DNA of 13,469 bases. It comes from an uncultured Roseburia sp. GTDB lineage: Bacteria; Bacillota; Clostridia; Lachnospirales; Lachnospiraceae. Positions 5,723 to 13,312 of the stretch are shown in pieces. The notes beneath the pieces are model-generated. The model was not told where the DNA came from. It searched no databases and saw only the letters and a list, made by a program, of their open reading frames with translations. Made by a program: the position numbers and the translations under genes. Location of the stretch: assembly GCA_947384095.1 (NCBI GenBank), contig CANDFU010000012.1, positions 1-13,469 of the forward strand. The letters are read 5' to 3'. Numbering within the stretch: position 1 is the first letter of the stretch; every line of letters begins with the position of its first letter.

Positions 5723-5763
5723 GAATTTAAGCCGGTAAAGAACGTCAGAAAGGGGCCCGTTTG

Positions 5764-8571
5764 ATGGATATGACATCTGAAGTTAAGCCAAAAGAATATA
5801 TCTGTGCTGGCCTGCTGGCCCATGTGGATGCGGGGAAGACCACCTTATCGGAAGCCCTTCTCTATCAGAGCGGGATGATCCGCCGGGCGGGCCGCGTGGA
5901 TAAAAAGGATACCTTTCTGGATACAGACAGGCTGGAGCGTGCCAGGGGAATCACTATTTTTTCCAAACAGGCCGTTTTAAATGTGTCGGATACGCGGATC
6001 GTCACGCTTCTGGATACGCCGGGACATGTGGACTTTTCGTCGGAGATGGAGCGCACGCTGCAGGTGCTGGACTATGCGGTTCTTGTGATCAGCGGCGCGG
6101 ACGGCGTGCAGGGACATACGAGAACACTCTGGCGGCTGCTTGCGCGTTACCGGATTCCGGTTTTTTTGTTTGTCAACAAGATGGATCAGAGCGGGGCGGA
6201 CAAAGAAATAAGGATGCGGGAGCTTAAAAGCATACTGGACGAAAATTGTGTGGATTTTTCTGATACCGCTTCCGAAGAATTTTATGAAAATGTGGCGGTC
6301 TGTGATGAAGATGCGCTGGAGCAGTATCTGGAAGAGGGGAGTATCCGGAAGGAGGCGCTGTGCCGGCTGATCTGGGAGAGAAAACTGTTTCCCTGTTATT
6401 TCGGGTCTGCGCTGAACATGGAAGGAGTGGAAGCATTTCTGCATGGATTCAACACTTACACGTGCTCCGGCAGACGCCTTGACGAATTTGGGGCGAAGGT
6501 TTTTAAGATCGCAAGGGATGCGCAGGGCGTCCGGCTGACTTATGTGAAAATTACAGGCGGCAGTGTCAGGGTAAGACAGGCGCTATGCGGCCGGGATATG
6601 AGGCGGAATGCGGGCGCCGGGGATGCCTGGGAAGAAAAAGTAACACAGATCCGTATCTACTCCGGAGAGAAGTATGAGGCGGTTGAGGAGGCGCCCGCGG
6701 GCTGTGTGTGCGCCCTCGCCGGACTTTCCAGGACCTGGCCGGGCGAGGGGCTGGGGACGGAAGAGAGGTCTGCTCCGCCGCTTCTGGAGCCGGTGCTGAC
6801 ATACCAGGTGATTCTGCCGGAAAACATTGACACTGCGAGTGCTCTTCCGAAATTCCGGCAGCTTGAGGAAGAAGACCCGCAGCTTCGCGTCGTCTGGAAT
6901 GAGCCGACAAAGGAAATCCAGGTGCAGCTGATGGGTGAAGTGCAGCTCGGGATCTTAAAGAGCCTGATACTTGAGCGTTTTGGGATGGAAGTGGAGTTTG
7001 GCAGCGGTGCGATAGTATATAAAGAGACAATCAGATCAACGGTAGAAGGTGTCGGACATTTTGAGCCGTTGCGCCATTATGCTGAGGTACATCTGCTTTT
7101 AGAGCCGCTGGAAGCCGGGAGCGGCCTGGTTTTTGCGTCTGTGTGCAGCGAAGATATTCTGGACAAAAACTGGCAGCGGCTGATTTTGTCCAGCCTTTCG
7201 GAGCGGGAATATCCGGGCGTGCTGGCAGGAGCGTCTGTTACGGATATGAAAATTACGCTGGTGAGCGGGCGGGCGCATTTAAAACACACGCAGGGCGGTG
7301 ATTTCAGACAGGCCGCCTGCCGGGCGCTGCGACAGGGGCTGATGCAGGCGGAATCCGTGCTGCTTGAGCCGTACTATAAGTTCTGGCTGAATGTTCCGCA
7401 GAGTATGGCGGGGCGGGCACTTGCAGACATTGAGCGGATGCATGGGTCGGTCGATATCGACAGCGTGTCGGGAGACGGCCGGACAGACGGAATATTTTCA
7501 GACGGCAAAGCGGGCGGCCTGTCTGCGCAGGAAAGTGGGATGCGGATCTTTTCGGGAACGGCGCCGGTGGCGGCGATGTGTAATTACCAGAAGGAAGTCG
7601 TCTCCTATACGAGAGGGGAGGGCAGCCTGTTCTGCGCGCCGGAAGGCTATCGGCCCTGTCACAACGCAGAGGAAGTGATTGCAAAAACCGGTTATGATCC
7701 CGGGCGGGATACGGAAAATCCGGCCGGTTCTGTTTTCTGCGCACACGGAGCCGGATTTCCCGTGAGCTGGGATAAGGTGTGGCAATACATGCATCTGGAG
7801 AGCTGGCTGGCGTCGTCGGAGTATTTGGGGGAAGAAAACGGATTTTTGCCCGAAATCCGGCGGAATGCCGGAAATGGCGGCAGAAGCGGGGAAGAGACGT
7901 GGATCGGAACGGAGGAGATCGATCGGATCCTGGACCGGACTTACAATGCAAATAAGAGAGAAAAAGGACCGGCGGATCGAAAGGGCTGGAGGCGCCACGG
8001 CAAAGCGGAAAACACTGTCCCGGCCGTGACGCGGACATACCGGCCCGGACCGGCGGAGGAAGAATACCTGCTTGTGGACGGGTACAATATTATTTTCGCC
8101 TGGGATGAATTAAAAAGCCTGGCGGCGGAAAATATCGATGGCGCGAGAGGAAAGCTTCTCGATATTTTGTGCAATTATCAGGGAATCCGCGGCTGCCATC
8201 TGATCGTGGTGTTTGATGCGTACCGTGTGCAGGGACATCGGACGGAGGTTTTCGATTATCAGAATATCCATGTGGTGTACACAAAGGAAGCGGAGACGGC
8301 GGATGCATATATTGAAAAGTTTGCCCACGAGAATGCACACAGGTACCGGGTGACGGTCGCCACATCGGATGGACTGGAACAGGTTATTATCCGGGGAGCG
8401 GGCTGCAGTCTGTTGTCCGCAAAAGATCTCAGGGAGGAAGTTGTCCGCAAAAACAGATATGCGCAGGAGCAATTCGGGCGTGAGAGGGAGACGGGGCGCA
8501 GTTATCTGCTGGATGGTATTTCGGAGGAGATTTTGAAGGAGTGTGGATTAAAAGAGGATGATCGGATATAA
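5764..8571 (+). CDS. EF-G/TetM-like translational GTPase fused to YacP/Rae1-type NYN nuclease
   Basis: A 935-residue two-part protein. Residues 1-690 or so form a ribosomal-protection-type GTPase: P-loop AHVDAGKTT at 19-27, RGIT switch region, DTPGH at 84-88, NKMD at 138-141, then EF-G-like domains II-V (for example VQLMGEVQLGILKSL and VLLEPYYKFWLNVPQ). A charged linker (about 700-765) follows. Residues about 767-920 match YacP/Rae1: LVDGYNIIFAW, VVFDAYRV, EAETADAYIEKF, VATSDGLEQ, with acidic candidates D772, D818, D847 and D869. B. subtilis Rae1 is a ribosome A-site mRNA endonuclease and TetM-type GTPases also occupy that site, so a joint role in ribosome surveillance is inferred. The TetM tip loop is not conserved, so tetracycline resistance is doubtful. 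The start is ATG 5764, after AAAGGGG; an in-frame TTG lies at 5761. Confidence 0.9.
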   Translation: MDMTSEVKPKEYICAGLLAHVDAGKTTLSEALLYQSGMIRRAGRVDKKDTFLDTDRLERARGITIFSKQAVLNVSDTRIVTLLDTPGHVDFSSEMERTLQVLDYAVLVISGADGVQGHTRTLWRLLARYRIPVFLFVNKMDQSGADKEIRMRELKSILDENCVDFSDTASEEFYENVAVCDEDALEQYLEEGSIRKEALCRLIWERKLFPCYFGSALNMEGVEAFLHGFNTYTCSGRRLDEFGAKVFKIARDAQGVRLTYVKITGGSVRVRQALCGRDMRRNAGAGDAWEEKVTQIRIYSGEKYEAVEEAPAGCVCALAGLSRTWPGEGLGTEERSAPPLLEPVLTYQVILPENIDTASALPKFRQLEEEDPQLRVVWNEPTKEIQVQLMGEVQLGILKSLILERFGMEVEFGSGAIVYKETIRSTVEGVGHFEPLRHYAEVHLLLEPLEAGSGLVFASVCSEDILDKNWQRLILSSLSEREYPGVLAGASVTDMKITLVSGRAHLKHTQGGDFRQAACRALRQGLMQAESVLLEPYYKFWLNVPQSMAGRALADIERMHGSVDIDSVSGDGRTDGIFSDGKAGGLSAQESGMRIFSGTAPVAAMCNYQKEVVSYTRGEGSLFCAPEGYRPCHNAEEVIAKTGYDPGRDTENPAGSVFCAHGAGFPVSWDKVWQYMHLESWLASSEYLGEENGFLPEIRRNAGNGGRSGEETWIGTEEIDRILDRTYNANKREKGPADRKGWRRHGKAENTVPAVTRTYRPGPAEEEYLLVDGYNIIFAWDELKSLAAENIDGARGKLLDILCNYQGIRGCHLIVVFDAYRVQGHRTEVFDYQNIHVVYTKEAETADAYIEKFAHENAHRYRVTVATSDGLEQVIIRGAGCSLLSAKDLREEVVRKNRYAQEQFGRERETGRSYLLDGISEEILKECGLKEDDRI

Positions 8572-9997: not shown

Positions 9998-10017
9998 GCA
10001 GATCTCACCGTTTTCCG
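9984..10017. terminator. Bidirectional terminator between converging genes
   Basis: An inverted repeat with arms 9984-9998 and 10004-10017 pairs as CGGAAAA/TTTTCCG plus CGGTGAG/CTCACCG, with one bulged G and a 5-base loop (CAGAT). The stop codons of the GH5 gene (9995-9997) and of the convergent dtxR-like gene (10005-10007) both lie inside it. The GC core followed by TTTT on either strand suits intrinsic termination in both directions, although the T-tracts are short. Confidence 0.6.
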
Positions 10018-10379
10018 GTATTTGCAATGTGCCGCTTAATCGCCGCAAAGCTTTCCGCGCTCACGTCGTGCTCGATCTTGCATGCGTCCTCAGCGGCGAC
10101 CTTCGGGTCCACGCCGAGCATAACCAGCCAGTTTGAGAGGGTCGTATGGCGTTCATATATTTTTTCCGCAATCTCAAGTCCTGTTTCCGTCAAATGGATG
10201 TGACTGTCTGTGTCCACGGTAATATAGCCGTTTTCCCGCAGATTTTTCATCGCTACGCTGACGCTCGGTTTTTTAAAGTTCATCTCGTTGGCGATGTCGA
10301 CGGAGCGGACATTTCCAAGCCGGTGAGACAGAATCAGAATTGTCTCCAGGTAATTTTCTGCCGATTCATTCATTACCAT
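10005..10379 (-). CDS. DtxR/MntR-family metal-dependent transcriptional repressor
   Basis: A 124-residue regulator: winged helix-turn-helix (about 1-65) followed by the dimerisation and metal-binding region (about 66-115). There is no C-terminal FeoA/SH3 domain, so the layout is that of MntR. By family knowledge it binds operators when loaded with Fe2+ or Mn2+ and represses uptake genes. Metal ligands can be aligned by hand: Asn9 and Glu12 (MntR Asp8 and Glu11), His78 (MntR His77), Cys100 (Glu99 in MntR, Cys102 in DtxR), Glu103 and His104. It is thus a hybrid between manganese and iron types, and the metal cannot be called. ATG 10379 is preferred: AAAAAAGGGGG lies eight bases upstream, whereas the GTG at 10388 falls inside that site. 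No transporter gene adjoins it. Confidence 0.88.
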   Translation of the reverse strand: MVMNESAENYLETILILSHRLGNVRSVDIANEMNFKKPSVSVAMKNLRENGYITVDTDSHIHLTETGLEIAEKIYERHTTLSNWLVMLGVDPKVAAEDACKIEHDVSAESFAAIKRHIANTGKR

Positions 10380-10402
10380 CTGATACACCCCCTTTTTTAT
10401 AT

Positions 10403-10566: not shown

Positions 10567-10615
10567 TAAACAAAAAACGCAACATTCTGTTATGAAATGT
10601 TGCGTTTTTTGTTTA
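10567..10615. terminator. 20-bp perfect hairpin, bidirectional terminator enclosing the left recombination site
   Basis: Arms 10567-10586 and 10596-10615 are exact reverse complements over 20 bp, with a 9-base loop (CTGTTATGA). The GC part (GCAACATT/AATGTTGC) is flanked by A6 and T6, so each strand shows a stem followed by TTTTTTGTTTA, a strong intrinsic terminator in both directions. It would stop recombinase transcripts before dtxR and also catch the sigma-28 promoter at 10624-10650. The inner 12-bp arms and loop double as the left recombination site. Confidence 0.85.
10575..10607 (-). repeat. Left recombination site (inverted copy)
   Basis: Read on the - strand: arm AAACGCAACATT, spacer TCATAACAG (10595-10587), arm AATGTTGCGTTT. 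The arms are perfect inverted repeats around an asymmetric 9-base spacer, the usual form of a tyrosine-recombinase core site. It matches the right site at 28 of 33 positions, including 8 of 9 spacer bases, and lies in the opposite orientation, so recombination between the two would invert the DNA between them. Confidence 0.75.
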
Positions 10616-10623
10616 CACTGTAT

Positions 10624-10650
10624 ATATCGTCCATGTGCAGAAATACTTTA
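10624..10650 (-). promoter_or_regulatory. Sigma-28/sigma-D flagellar promoter inside the invertible segment
   Basis: On the - strand TAAA (10650-10647), exactly 15 bases, then GACGATAT (10631-10624). The Bacillus sigma-D consensus is TAAA-N15-GCCGATAT, so 11 of 12 defined bases match; against the E. coli form TAAAGTTT-N11-GCCGATAA, 13 of 16 match. The expected start near 10616 falls at the edge of the hairpin terminator. No flagellar gene lies in the direction it points, but csrA and flagellin lie on the other side of the invertible segment. I see no comparable motif directly upstream of either of those genes. Confidence 0.72.
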
Positions 10651-10681
10651 GTCTTTTTTCTGAATTTTTCTTTTCTTTTTC

Positions 10682-11260
10682 TTAAAGCAGAACTTCCATA
10701 AATGCCGCGTCGCGCTCATCCTGATCGATCCCCAGATAACGTTTGGTGTAGGAATACGAAGAGTGGTTGTAAATATCCATCAGAAGCGCAGGCTGTATGC
10801 CTTTTTTCCATGCATGATAACCGAATGTTTTGCGGAGTGAATGGCAACTGATATGCGGCAGCCGTATCGTCTCATCTGCGGCTTTCCGGATCAGCCGGTA
10901 TGCCGTTGTGCGGCTGATCGGTATCGAGTGATCTGTGCTTTTGGTAAACACAAACTCGCCGGCCTGCGGCGTTCTTATTCCGGCAAAAGATTTCAGCGCG
11001 CTCACGACATGGGAATTGAGTGCAATCACAGATGCTTTTCCTGTCTTTTGTTCTGTGATCCGCAAGTGTTTTACAATCTGGCGCGAATCAAAGTCATAGA
11101 GATCATCCCATCTCAAGGATAACACGTCACTGATGCGCAGCGCCGTATTCAGGGTAAGGACGATCAATGCATGGTTTCTGGCGGAAGGACGCGTTGTCAG
11201 ATAATAGTCTGTAAACTGTCTCAGTTTTTCTTCATTTCGTATTGGTTGTGCTGTTCCCAC
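10682..11260 (-). CDS. FimB/FimE-type tyrosine recombinase (DNA invertase)
   Basis: A 192-residue site-specific recombinase consisting almost only of the catalytic domain, the size of FimB and FimE (about 200 residues), without the separate arm- or core-binding domain of phage integrases. All catalytic residues are visible: Arg42 in TALRISDVLSL, Lys72 in the QKTGK beta-hairpin, His140 and Arg143 in CHSLRKTFGYHAWKKG, His166 in IYNHSS, and the nucleophile Tyr175 in TKRYLGI. It starts at GTG 11260 with AGAAAAGGGGG about nine bases upstream. Paired inverted lox-like sites flank it, at about 20 bases upstream and 75 bases downstream, so it most likely catalyses inversion of the segment in which it lies. 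Its own promoter is not clear; it may overlap the right site. Confidence 0.92.
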   Translation of the reverse strand: MGTAQPIRNEEKLRQFTDYYLTTRPSARNHALIVLTLNTALRISDVLSLRWDDLYDFDSRQIVKHLRITEQKTGKASVIALNSHVVSALKSFAGIRTPQAGEFVFTKSTDHSIPISRTTAYRLIRKAADETIRLPHISCHSLRKTFGYHAWKKGIQPALLMDIYNHSSYSYTKRYLGIDQDERDAAFMEVLL

Positions 11261-11281
11261 TGTTGTTTTCCCCCTTTTCTG

Positions 11282-11314
11282 AAATGCAACATTTCATAAC
11301 AAACTGTTACATTT
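11282..11314 (+). repeat. Right recombination site
   Basis: Read on the + strand: arm AAATGCAACATT, spacer TCATAACAA (11294-11302), arm ACTGTTACATTT. The arms pair at 10 of 12 positions. It matches the left site at 28 of 33 positions in inverted orientation. It lies between the recombinase start (11260, leftward) and the csrA leader hairpin (11316), exactly where an inversion would exchange the promoter region of csrA. Confidence 0.75.
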
Positions 11315-11315
11315 T

Positions 11316-11350
11316 CAGCCAGTCGGACATGGCTGCAGAAACAAGGAGGT
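11316..11350 (+). promoter_or_regulatory. Predicted CsrA binding sites in the csrA leader
   Basis: CAGCCA (11316-11321) and TGGCTG (11330-11335) make a 6-bp stem whose 8-base loop GTCGGACA exposes GGA. Five bases later ACAAGGAGGT (11341-11350), the Shine-Dalgarno of csrA, matches the CsrA consensus ACAnGGAnGU at every fixed position. A looped GGA plus a GGA in the ribosome site is the classical two-site layout for CsrA repression, so csrA is probably autoregulated. Confidence 0.68.
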
Positions 11351-11357
11351 TTTTCGG

Positions 11358-11615
11358 ATGTTAAAGCTGACACTGAAACCGGGAGAGTATATCAACATTG
11401 GCACGGATATCCGCATTGTTTTTTCGGGCGGTTCGGCCAACAATATTCATCTTTTGCTGGATGCGCCCAGGGAAATTCCGATCGCGCGAAACCGCGCGCA
11501 AAACGACGGGGGAAAAACATCCTACTATACGGATCGCAGGATTTCGGAGGAAGCACAGCGCGAGATTGCAGGCATCATAAGGCGGGAGCGCCACAGACAG
11601 GATGCAGCGCGGTAA
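11358..11615 (+). CDS. csrA: CsrA carbon storage regulator (RNA-binding translational repressor)
   Basis: An 85-residue CsrA/RsmA protein. Its N-terminal half follows the family: LKLTLKPGEYINIG, a beta-rich middle, and LLLDAPREIPIARNRA with the conserved DAP turn and Arg44, which contacts RNA in E. coli CsrA. Position 6, Arg in E. coli and an RNA contact, is Leu here, and position 7 is Lys. The C-terminal tail is long and very basic (RRERHRQDAAR). In B. subtilis CsrA represses flagellin translation and is held by FliW; here csrA lies directly before the flagellin gene, 92 bases apart. No fliW is in the window. The start has a perfect SD, itself a predicted CsrA site, and no sigma-28 promoter precedes it in the assembled orientation. 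Confidence 0.9.
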   Translation: MLKLTLKPGEYINIGTDIRIVFSGGSANNIHLLLDAPREIPIARNRAQNDGGKTSYYTDRRISEEAQREIAGIIRRERHRQDAAR

Positions 11616-11654
11616 TAGGCAGGCCGTAACGGCGCTGTTTATTATAGACAACAG

Positions 11655-11707: not shown

Positions 11708-13312
11708 ATGGTAGTACAGCACAATTTGACAGCGATGAATGCGAACAGGATGTTAGGGATCACGACCGGACAGCAGTCCAAGTCTGCGGAGCGGTTATCT
11801 TCCGGTTATAAGATCAACCGCGCGGCTGACGATGCGGCAGGACTTACGATCTCTGAAAAGATGCGGAAGCAGATCCGCGGCCTCGATCAGGCATCGGCGA
11901 ATGCACAGGACGGTATTTCCTGCGTGCAGACAGCGGAAGGCGCGCTGACGGAAGTACATTCCATGCTGCAGCGTATGAATGAGCTGGCAGTGCAGGCGGC
12001 AAACGGCACAATGTCGACGGATGACCGGCAGGCAGTCCAGGACGAGATCGATCAGCTTGTGACAGAGATCGACCGTGTCTCCGAGACGACAAAATTTAAT
12101 GAGATCTATCTGCTGAAGGGCGAAGACGGGACGCAGAAGACGAGTACGAAGGCAAGCTACGCGATACAGGATGCCTATAAGGCGGACCAGGAAGGAAAAC
12201 TGGGCGTCATAGCCGGACAGGATGCGTACGCAGCGGGAAGTACGACAGCTGTTACGGGAGGGGCGGCGGCTACCGCAGCTTCCATGGCGCTGGATACGGC
12301 GGCGCTCGGGGCAAACAAACTGTTTGTCAGTCCTACAGGCGGCGGTACGGCAGCTACAGACCACGTCGAAGTGACAGACGCTGACCTTAAAAATTATTTT
12401 GACGTGGATGACGCGGGAAATGTGACGGCAAAAGCCGGGCTGACTTTCGTGACGGCGGCAAACATCACACTGGCGAATGCCGGCGGCGGAACTACTTCTA
12501 CCGGCGTCGACAGCGTTACCGGTACGGCGGCAACGGACGCGGCACAGAGCGAGATCGACAAATATGTGGAAATCGGCGCGGACGGCAAATTAAAATATAA
12601 AGAAGGCATGCTTCTTTATAAACAGCCGGCAGACGCGACAGATGAATATGGAGATCAGCTGAATGCAGAAGTCATCGCGGAGGCAGATCTGGATCAGTAC
12701 TTTGAGGTTGCCGGAAATCCGCTTGTGGATCTCGCCAGCGGTGAAAAAATTTCGGAAGCTGACCTGGAAAAATATTTTGAAAACGGCGCTTATAAGGGCG
12801 GGATTGCCAGGAAGGATGCCGGCGGCAATGTAACTGAGATCGGCGCCGAGCAGATCGAGACGTATGTCAAGGTGAATAAAAAGACGTCGACAAGTGCGGA
12901 GGCACTGGAATTTAAGCTTCATGTCGGTTCCGAGTCAGATCCGAAAAACAAGATCGACGTGAAAATTGAGGCGATGTCCGCAGGCGGAATCGGTGTCGAT
13001 GTCTTAAAAGCGGACGGTCTGATGACACAGGATGACGCGACGGCCGCGATTGATACGATCGCGAATGCAATCAAAAAAGTGTCAGAGCAGCGTTCTGCGC
13101 TCGGCGCCGTACAGAACCGTCTGGAGCATACCATAGCGAACCTGGATAACGTCGTCGAGAATACGACCGCGGCGGAGTCCCGCATCCGTGACACCGATAT
13201 GGCGGAAGAGATGGTGGAATACAGCAAGAATAATATTCTTGCGCAGGCCGGCCAGTCCATGCTGGCACAGGCAAATCAGTCTACACAGGGCGTTCTTTCG
13301 TTATTACAGTAA
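11708..13312 (+). CDS. Flagellin (Lachnospiraceae type)
   Basis: The 534-residue filament subunit, exported by the flagellar type III system without a cleaved signal. The N-terminal D0/D1 region (1-140) is strongly conserved: MVVQHNLTAMNANRMLG, LSSGYKINRAADDAAGL, LQRMNELAVQAANGT. The C-terminal D1/D0 region (about 430-534) has AVQNRLEHTIANLDNV, SRIRDTDMAEEM and the end QSTQGVLSLLQ. The surface-exposed middle is Ala/Thr/Gly-rich and contains five copies of a motif like ADLxxYFEV (225, 281, 326, 351, 381). Arg89, Glu92 and Leu93 align with TLR5-contact residues of Salmonella FliC, with Asn91 in place of Arg92. Translation is probably controlled by CsrA; transcription may be read through from csrA. 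A strong terminator follows. Confidence 0.97.
   Translation: MVVQHNLTAMNANRMLGITTGQQSKSAERLSSGYKINRAADDAAGLTISEKMRKQIRGLDQASANAQDGISCVQTAEGALTEVHSMLQRMNELAVQAANGTMSTDDRQAVQDEIDQLVTEIDRVSETTKFNEIYLLKGEDGTQKTSTKASYAIQDAYKADQEGKLGVIAGQDAYAAGSTTAVTGGAAATAASMALDTAALGANKLFVSPTGGGTAATDHVEVTDADLKNYFDVDDAGNVTAKAGLTFVTAANITLANAGGGTTSTGVDSVTGTAATDAAQSEIDKYVEIGADGKLKYKEGMLLYKQPADATDEYGDQLNAEVIAEADLDQYFEVAGNPLVDLASGEKISEADLEKYFENGAYKGGIARKDAGGNVTEIGAEQIETYVKVNKKTSTSAEALEFKLHVGSESDPKNKIDVKIEAMSAGGIGVDVLKADGLMTQDDATAAIDTIANAIKKVSEQRSALGAVQNRLEHTIANLDNVVENTTAAESRIRDTDMAEEMVEYSKNNILAQAGQSMLAQANQSTQGVLSLLQ
12380..12874 (+). repeat. Five degenerate ADLxxYFEV motifs in the flagellin variable domain
   Basis: The translated motif occurs at residues 225 (ADLKNYFDV), 281 (SEIDKYVEI), 326 (ADLDQYFEV), 351 (ADLEKYFEN) and 381 (EQIETYVKV), at intervals of 25-56 residues. 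Each is followed within a few residues by a Gly- or Lys-rich turn. The copies have diverged at the DNA level, so they look like an old structural repeat rather than a slipping tandem array. Confidence 0.6.

Follow-up and report, generated by a model that had tools for sequence, protein, structure and literature searches.

Closest described systems

An invertible promoter is a known kind of switch. In the Hin/fljBA system of Salmonella, the recombinase gene and the promoter both lie inside an invertible segment adjoining the flagellin operon, which has fljA where the locus described here has a csrA-like gene. This locus was found in the window, that is, the whole stretch of DNA analyzed, an entire contig of 13,469 bases from a metagenome-assembled genome that is 61.6% complete. 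The window has the Hin-type layout, with a recombinase gene and a predicted promoter inside a segment and a flagellin gene downstream. However, Hin is a serine recombinase (PMC11868660), whereas the window encodes a tyrosine recombinase between sites with 7-bp cores. The locus also differs from Hin in that its promoter lies beyond the recombinase gene and its distal site is terminator-like.

The FimB and FimE genes of E. coli are located outside their invertible segment. At fimS, a small tyrosine recombinase (FimB/FimE) flips a promoter, as is predicted for the window (PMC2784873). In contrast to fimS, the recombinase gene in the window lies inside the segment, while two related loci, L010 and L155, have a fim-like arrangement in which the small promoter segment does not include the recombinase gene.

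In C. difficile, the tyrosine recombinase RecV is encoded away from the switches it serves. The flg switch of this species, which controls the early flagellar operon, involves RecV, inverted repeats, and a 154-bp segment in the flgB 5' leader, and RecV also serves cwpV (PMC5386303). The flg switch and the window locus are alike as tyrosine-recombinase flagellar switches of Clostridia with inverted repeats, the latter by prediction, but the segment in the window precedes csrA and flagellin, holds its own recombinase gene, and would target one flagellin. For cwpV, an intrinsic terminator was proposed in the OFF transcript, and the promoter is not part of the DNA that inverts (PMC2784873). The idea of terminating the OFF transcript is shared with the window, where in contrast the promoter itself would invert and the hairpin lies on its outward side. 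At the pneumococcal hsdS inverton, the gene of the tyrosine recombinase PsrA is counted within its own inverton (PMC12324116), although that inverton shuffles coding sequences of methylase subunits and involves neither promoter inversion nor a flagellin. A recognized description of flagellin inversion in Lachnospiraceae or Roseburia was not found in the literature searched; the inverton surveys named in PMC11868660 may list some of these loci.

Organization of the locus

The genes and elements of the locus are arranged in the order MntR-like gene, distal site, promoter, recombinase gene, proximal site, csrA, and flagellin (Table 1). The segment between the cores of the two sites is very probably an ON/OFF switch for csrA and flagellin, predicted to be flipped by its own recombinase. 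This reading is based on how the locus is built and conserved, on one relative in which the segment is inverted, and on an exchange of half-sites at the core. More broadly, the locus probably represents an undescribed switch found across the Lachnospiraceae, a self-inverting cassette in which one site doubles as a terminator, which is OFF by default and maintains a reserve of silent flagellin.

Table 1. Coordinates of the features of the putative switch and its neighboring genes in the window
Feature	Position	Strand	Remark	Basis
MntR/DtxR-type regulator gene	10005..10388	-	outer side of segment	ORF and profile search
Distal-site palindrome, perfect over 20 bp, with A/T-runs	10567..10615	.	predicted terminator for OFF transcript	repeat search, folding
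Distal site	10578..10604	+	10-bp arm, 7-bp core TGTTATG (10588-10594), 10-bp arm	inverted-repeat search, site pattern
Predicted invertible segment	10588..11301	.	core to core, OFF orientation here	paired sites; inverted homologue in L208
Sigma-28-like promoter	10624..10650	-	TAAA-N15-GACGATAT, directed away from csrA-flagellin	pattern scan; same place in relatives
Tyrosine recombinase gene	10682..11260	-	192 aa, GTG start, inside own segment	ORF and profile search
Proximal site	11285..11311	-	inverted copy, same core (11295-11301)	inverted-repeat search, site pattern
csrA-like gene	11358..11615	+	85 aa, divergent, first gene of controlled pair	ORF and profile search
Flagellin gene	11708..13312	+	534 aa	ORF and profile search

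The csrA-like product scored above the Pfam threshold and far under the NCBIfam CsrA cut-offs. The csrA and flagellin genes are predicted to be co-transcribed, and the terminator-like site is predicted to insulate the MntR/DtxR-type gene. A weak sigma-70-like match between csrA and flagellin (11616-11645) counts against the switch reading; the region of the window scanned included four sigma-70-like matches, compared to 2.3 by chance.

Inverted repeats were identified at 10574-10607 and 11282-11315, with 29 of 34 positions matching. These are probably the same pair, before trimming, as the 33-bp sites with 28 identical positions that were proposed in an initial annotation made from the sequence of the window. 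The site-derived pattern had two matches in the window and none in 200 shuffles. The outer arm of the proximal site is the diverged one, and this site ends 46 nt from csrA. Hence, paired inverted sites, a defining feature of invertons, surround the promoter, which itself was recognized by sequence pattern. The pattern TAAA-N15-GNCGATA had its sole match in the 13.5 kb window just inside the left site and aimed left, where the initial annotation had placed it (mean of 0.02 matches in shuffles), and the element is a putative promoter on this basis.

A terminator to the left of the promoter had also been claimed. A hairpin with a perfect 20-bp stem was present there, with a folding energy of -26.1 kcal/mol (z -6.7). 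It was not listed by a simple terminator scan of the window region, probably because the T-run is part of the stem. While the presence of a terminator-like hairpin beside the promoter was thus correctly recognized, it had gone unseen that the distal site is itself part of the hairpin. This embedding of the distal site in a terminator-like hairpin, predicted to face the OFF transcript, is the new element of the locus.

The FimB-sized recombinase gene that had been noted between the sites encodes a protein of the Phage_integrase family (PF00589; E 1.4e-25, 90.5 bits, gathering score 27.1), and is a tyrosine recombinase rather than a serine recombinase of the Hin/Gin type. The residues R42, K75, H140, R143, H166, and Y175, which we take to be the catalytic R-K-H-x-x-R-H-Y set of tyrosine recombinases, were invariant in all 52 recombinases aligned, including that of the window. 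The alignment was drawn from the 59 csrA loci described below and left out L118 (internal stop), L019 and L071 (two-piece matches), and four loci whose stretch included no recombinase. The closest NCBIfam models were XerA, two DNA-invertase models, and XerC/D, all far under cut-off. The scores for NF007370 and NF007371 were 39.8 and 45.9 bits, far from the curated cut-offs of 221 and 222, and the protein was therefore not assigned to the families PRK09870/PRK09871, which presumably correspond to FimB/FimE. The nearest solved structures by sequence were XerC-like (E 4e-8) and XerA (E 8e-4). Between the window and the sister locus L028, whose recombinase is 90% identical, dN was 0.047 and dS 0.518 (dN/dS about 0.09), and by this measure the recombinase is under purifying selection. 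It is the likely catalyst of the predicted inversion.

A second recombinase, 58% identical to that of the switch, was observed in the genome of the window (L154, 8825-9406; G000:C6:8825-9394), adjoining a gene that by eye is aspS-like. Within 1.5 kb of it, no inverted repeat was found to exceed 12 nt. The switches of L029 and L053 likewise adjoin an aspS-like gene, suggesting that L154 may be a remnant or may work in trans.

Distribution among relatives

Counting the genome of the window, 25 of the 62 genomes from the genus and 30 of the 397 from the family had a recombinase match (both E <= 1e-38), as did 20 of 60 mixed relatives (E <= 1e-20). From a genome collection, the best 80 of 123 confirmed recombinase loci were taken, and 30 flagellin loci of the genus, taken from a longer list, were added. 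A second draw from the family, seeking more ON loci, returned nearly the same genomes as the first. After removal of duplicates, csrA matches defined 59 loci, and L221, L222, and L241, which entered the promoter tally only, raised this number to 62, the window included. Additionally, the 17 viral-contig loci from IMG/VR included no new switch locus.

According to the initial annotation, an absence of paired sites next to recombinase orthologues would have spoken against a switch. Under a strict script demanding at least 20 of 27 matches per pair, such sites were present in 47 of the 59 csrA loci. The other 12 were L008, L013, L025, L039, L047, L053, L121, L123, L127, L180, L181, and L187, among which another script found long inverted repeats in L013 and L053 and a shorter one in L127. 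Flanking inverted repeats were also present in the three late additions. The 7-bp cores were identical in 43 of the 47 site pairs (shuffled mean 1.8, maximum 8 in 10,000 shuffles), even though the distal cores were of 36 distinct kinds. For example, both sites of the window carry TGTTATG and both sites of L028 carry TGCCATG, a change of two bases in concert. In the four remaining pairs (L029, L118, L209, and L219), one edge base of the core differs. Identical inner arms were found in 29 of the 47 pairs and identical outer arms in 10.

The arrangement varied among the relatives. One clade has the recombinase gene reversed relative to the promoter, with the promoter still OFF (10 loci in the recombinase tree). 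L176 and L181 have the small segment only (227 bp from outer end to outer end in L176) and the recombinase on another contig. In L155, an insertion of approximately 1.9 kb with the look, by eye, of a group II intron and reverse transcriptase was observed between the distal site and the promoter.

The recombinase also matched the phage integrase family phrog_216 (E 6e-44), as would be expected if the unit were the remains of a phage, or a small mobile element, landed by chance beside flagellin genes. This explanation is extremely unlikely in view of the fixed geometry beside csrA and flagellin in tens of genomes, the promoter inside the unit, and a median of 794 bp between outer site ends (46 loci) that leaves little room for cargo. 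The occurrence of recombinase relatives in two-fifths of the genus genomes, as counted above, also argues against it.

A sigma-28-like promoter directed away from csrA was found in 54 of the 62 distinct csrA loci, including both the window and its sister L028. Among these, L019 was missed by a narrower promoter scan and seen in two others, L029 and L209 were called OFF by a laxer pattern only (background 0.004 per 120 nt and strand), and L217 has a further match inside the recombinase gene. Only one switch locus, L208 (genome G466), had its promoter directed at csrA. In L180 and L187 the promoter was also directed at csrA, with neither sites nor recombinase in the stretch. L025, L039, L047, L121, and L123 have the recombinase and no promoter within the range scanned; weak matches toward csrA 1.7 kb upstream in L039 and away from csrA at 1.76 kb in L121 were left uncounted. 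The initial annotation had arrived at the switch reading, which stood, and had overlooked both the recurrence of the switch across the family and the near-constant OFF state in assemblies.

From its start to where the distal site ends on the outer side, the promoter was at a median distance of 72 nt among 43 loci, and at 65-73 nt in 40 of them. Folding was compared in 45 of the 47 loci with site pairs, leaving out L155 for its insertion and L208 as ON. In all 45, the OFF leader exceeded the predicted ON leader in stability (mean -21.5 vs -11.2 kcal/mol), and it was followed by more U on average (8.2 vs 3.4 of 12). The stem extended beyond the site by a mean of 5.2 pairs in the OFF form and 1.3 in the predicted ON form, with exceptions in five loci, where the two were equal (L036) or reversed (L122, L130, L171, and L219).

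Since almost all assemblies show an outward promoter, it could instead serve its own side, driving an upstream gene, an antisense transcript, or a small RNA, with the recombinase and sites incidental; in the window, the next outward gene (MntR-like) does lie in the sense direction. Such a role is highly unlikely, as the outward neighbors vary between species and often run in the opposite direction (by eye, they include phosphofructokinase, aspartyl-tRNA synthetase, and ribosomal L17), and a hairpin more stable than its predicted ON form follows within about 70 nt in every locus folded. Moreover, 28 flagellin loci were read, of which 14 had no csrA match, and by hand count 13 of these 14 had such a promoter directed at a flagellin (in L201, at the second flagellin copy), suggesting that an outward promoter is a trait of the switch loci. 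The outward gene was rejected as the target of the promoter, as the neighbors differ and are often convergent. In G440 and G057, a recombinase was found near a csrA-less flagellin, and no paired sites were found there.

Evidence for inversion

The 54 OFF loci and one ON locus among the 55 promoter-classified switches are far from an even mix, which counts against the switch reading. Selection against this flagellin in the host or in culture, an intrinsic recombinase bias, or inversion that is rare and regulated are possible causes, and a locked or very rarely moving state is possible in many species. In the extreme case, the segment would be a relic, inverted once and now fixed OFF in this and most other species with the flagellin silent. 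Besides the OFF bias, this would agree with the lack of a second copy of the segment in the genome of the window, at its 61.6% completeness, and with two assemblies (G202 and G060) in which a search at contig ends found no other orientation. Contigs of L108 and L122 that end 17 nt beyond the distal site were accordingly not counted as evidence of mixed orientation. A locked relic is nonetheless unlikely, because the recombinase is under purifying selection with its catalytic residues retained in every aligned copy, the cores co-vary between paired sites, and L208 is ON while nested among OFF relatives.

When L208 was compared to the OFF locus L007, 695 bp of the segment aligned in reverse at 73% identity; on the csrA side and on the outer distal side, the flanks aligned directly. 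The position of L208 among OFF loci in the recombinase tree suggests a recent flip rather than an old rearrangement. In the OFF relatives L205 and L006, the distal site has the outer arm TGCAACATTC and the inner arm GAATGTTGCA. The distal site of L208 has the same outer arm and a proximal-type inner arm, and its proximal site shows the converse. The outer arms have thus stayed with the flanks and the inner arms moved with the segment, indicating an exchange within CTTATAA.

A related segment was found in opposite orientations in L050 and L051, which share 99.96% identity across 7.8 kb of flanking DNA. The contig of L045 starts with a reversed repeat of the right flank (1-137 and 915-1051), so that this flank adjoins the segment at either end; this is as expected of a sample of mixed orientation, though an assembly artefact is possible. 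Neither L050/L051 nor L045 adjoins flagellin genes, which limits their weight for a flagellin switch. Both orientations, another defining feature of invertons, were thus observed in relatives, namely in L208 against the OFF loci and, for a related unit, in L050/L051, the comparison that had been suggested as a check. For the species of the window itself, inversion is predicted from these relatives. Taken with the core co-variation and the catalytic residues, these loci uphold, at the level of sequence, the earlier proposal of a flagellin switch based on a tyrosine recombinase and captured in the OFF state.

The segment of L050 and L051 (7884-8793, with 8 kb flanks) lies between divergent and similar genes that by eye are glycosyltransferase-like, and looks like a two-way switch of surface sugars. 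The two pieces of DNA are labelled as different species (Blautia and Eisenbergiella).

In the proposed mechanism, the promoter in the OFF state would face away from csrA and fire into the terminator-like hairpin of which the distal site is part. An exchange of strands within the 7-bp cores, as deduced from the relatives, would turn the segment round and place the promoter about 115-120 bp upstream of csrA; in L208, it starts 115 bp upstream. The ON transcript would then pass through a hybrid site whose hairpin is weaker, so that csrA and flagellin could be transcribed by sigma-28 RNA polymerase. Inversion would therefore both aim the sigma-28 promoter at csrA-flagellin and dismantle the terminator. 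Termination, co-transcription of the two genes, and a phase-variable display of flagellin are the expected consequences.

A possibly silent flagellin in Roseburia intestinalis

Roseburia are among the prevalent motile bacteria of the gut, and their flagellins are pro-inflammatory (PMC3720852). Three flagellin genes were reported by Neville et al. to lack an upstream sigma-28 or sigma-43 promoter, one of them being ROSINTL182_08635 of R. intestinalis (539 aa, starting with MVVQHNMSAM; PMC3720852). A matching flagellin of 541 aa, MAMVVQHNMSAM, was found after csrA in G472, an assembly of one 4,493,348-bp contig that appears to be R. intestinalis. Inside paired sites at this locus, a degenerate sigma-28-like promoter, TTAA-N15-GCCGAAAT, faces away, so that the locus is OFF. 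Hence, the switch may explain the missing promoter at the R. intestinalis flagellin of Neville et al. (PMC3720852), and the presence of an OFF switch locus in G472 means that the idea can be put to the test in a commensal that is in culture. If the switch reading is true, the presence of a flagellin gene in metagenomes would not mean its expression, and one flagellin would be kept silent in nearly all genomes that have the switch, a large reserve in the gut.

Other features of the window

At the start of the contig, the translation of positions 14-60 resembles what is presumably read-through of a sequencing adapter, a candidate assignment. Elsewhere in the window (5761-8571), a single ORF was found by profile search to join an Elongation-factor-G-like GTPase to a YacP-like NYN domain.
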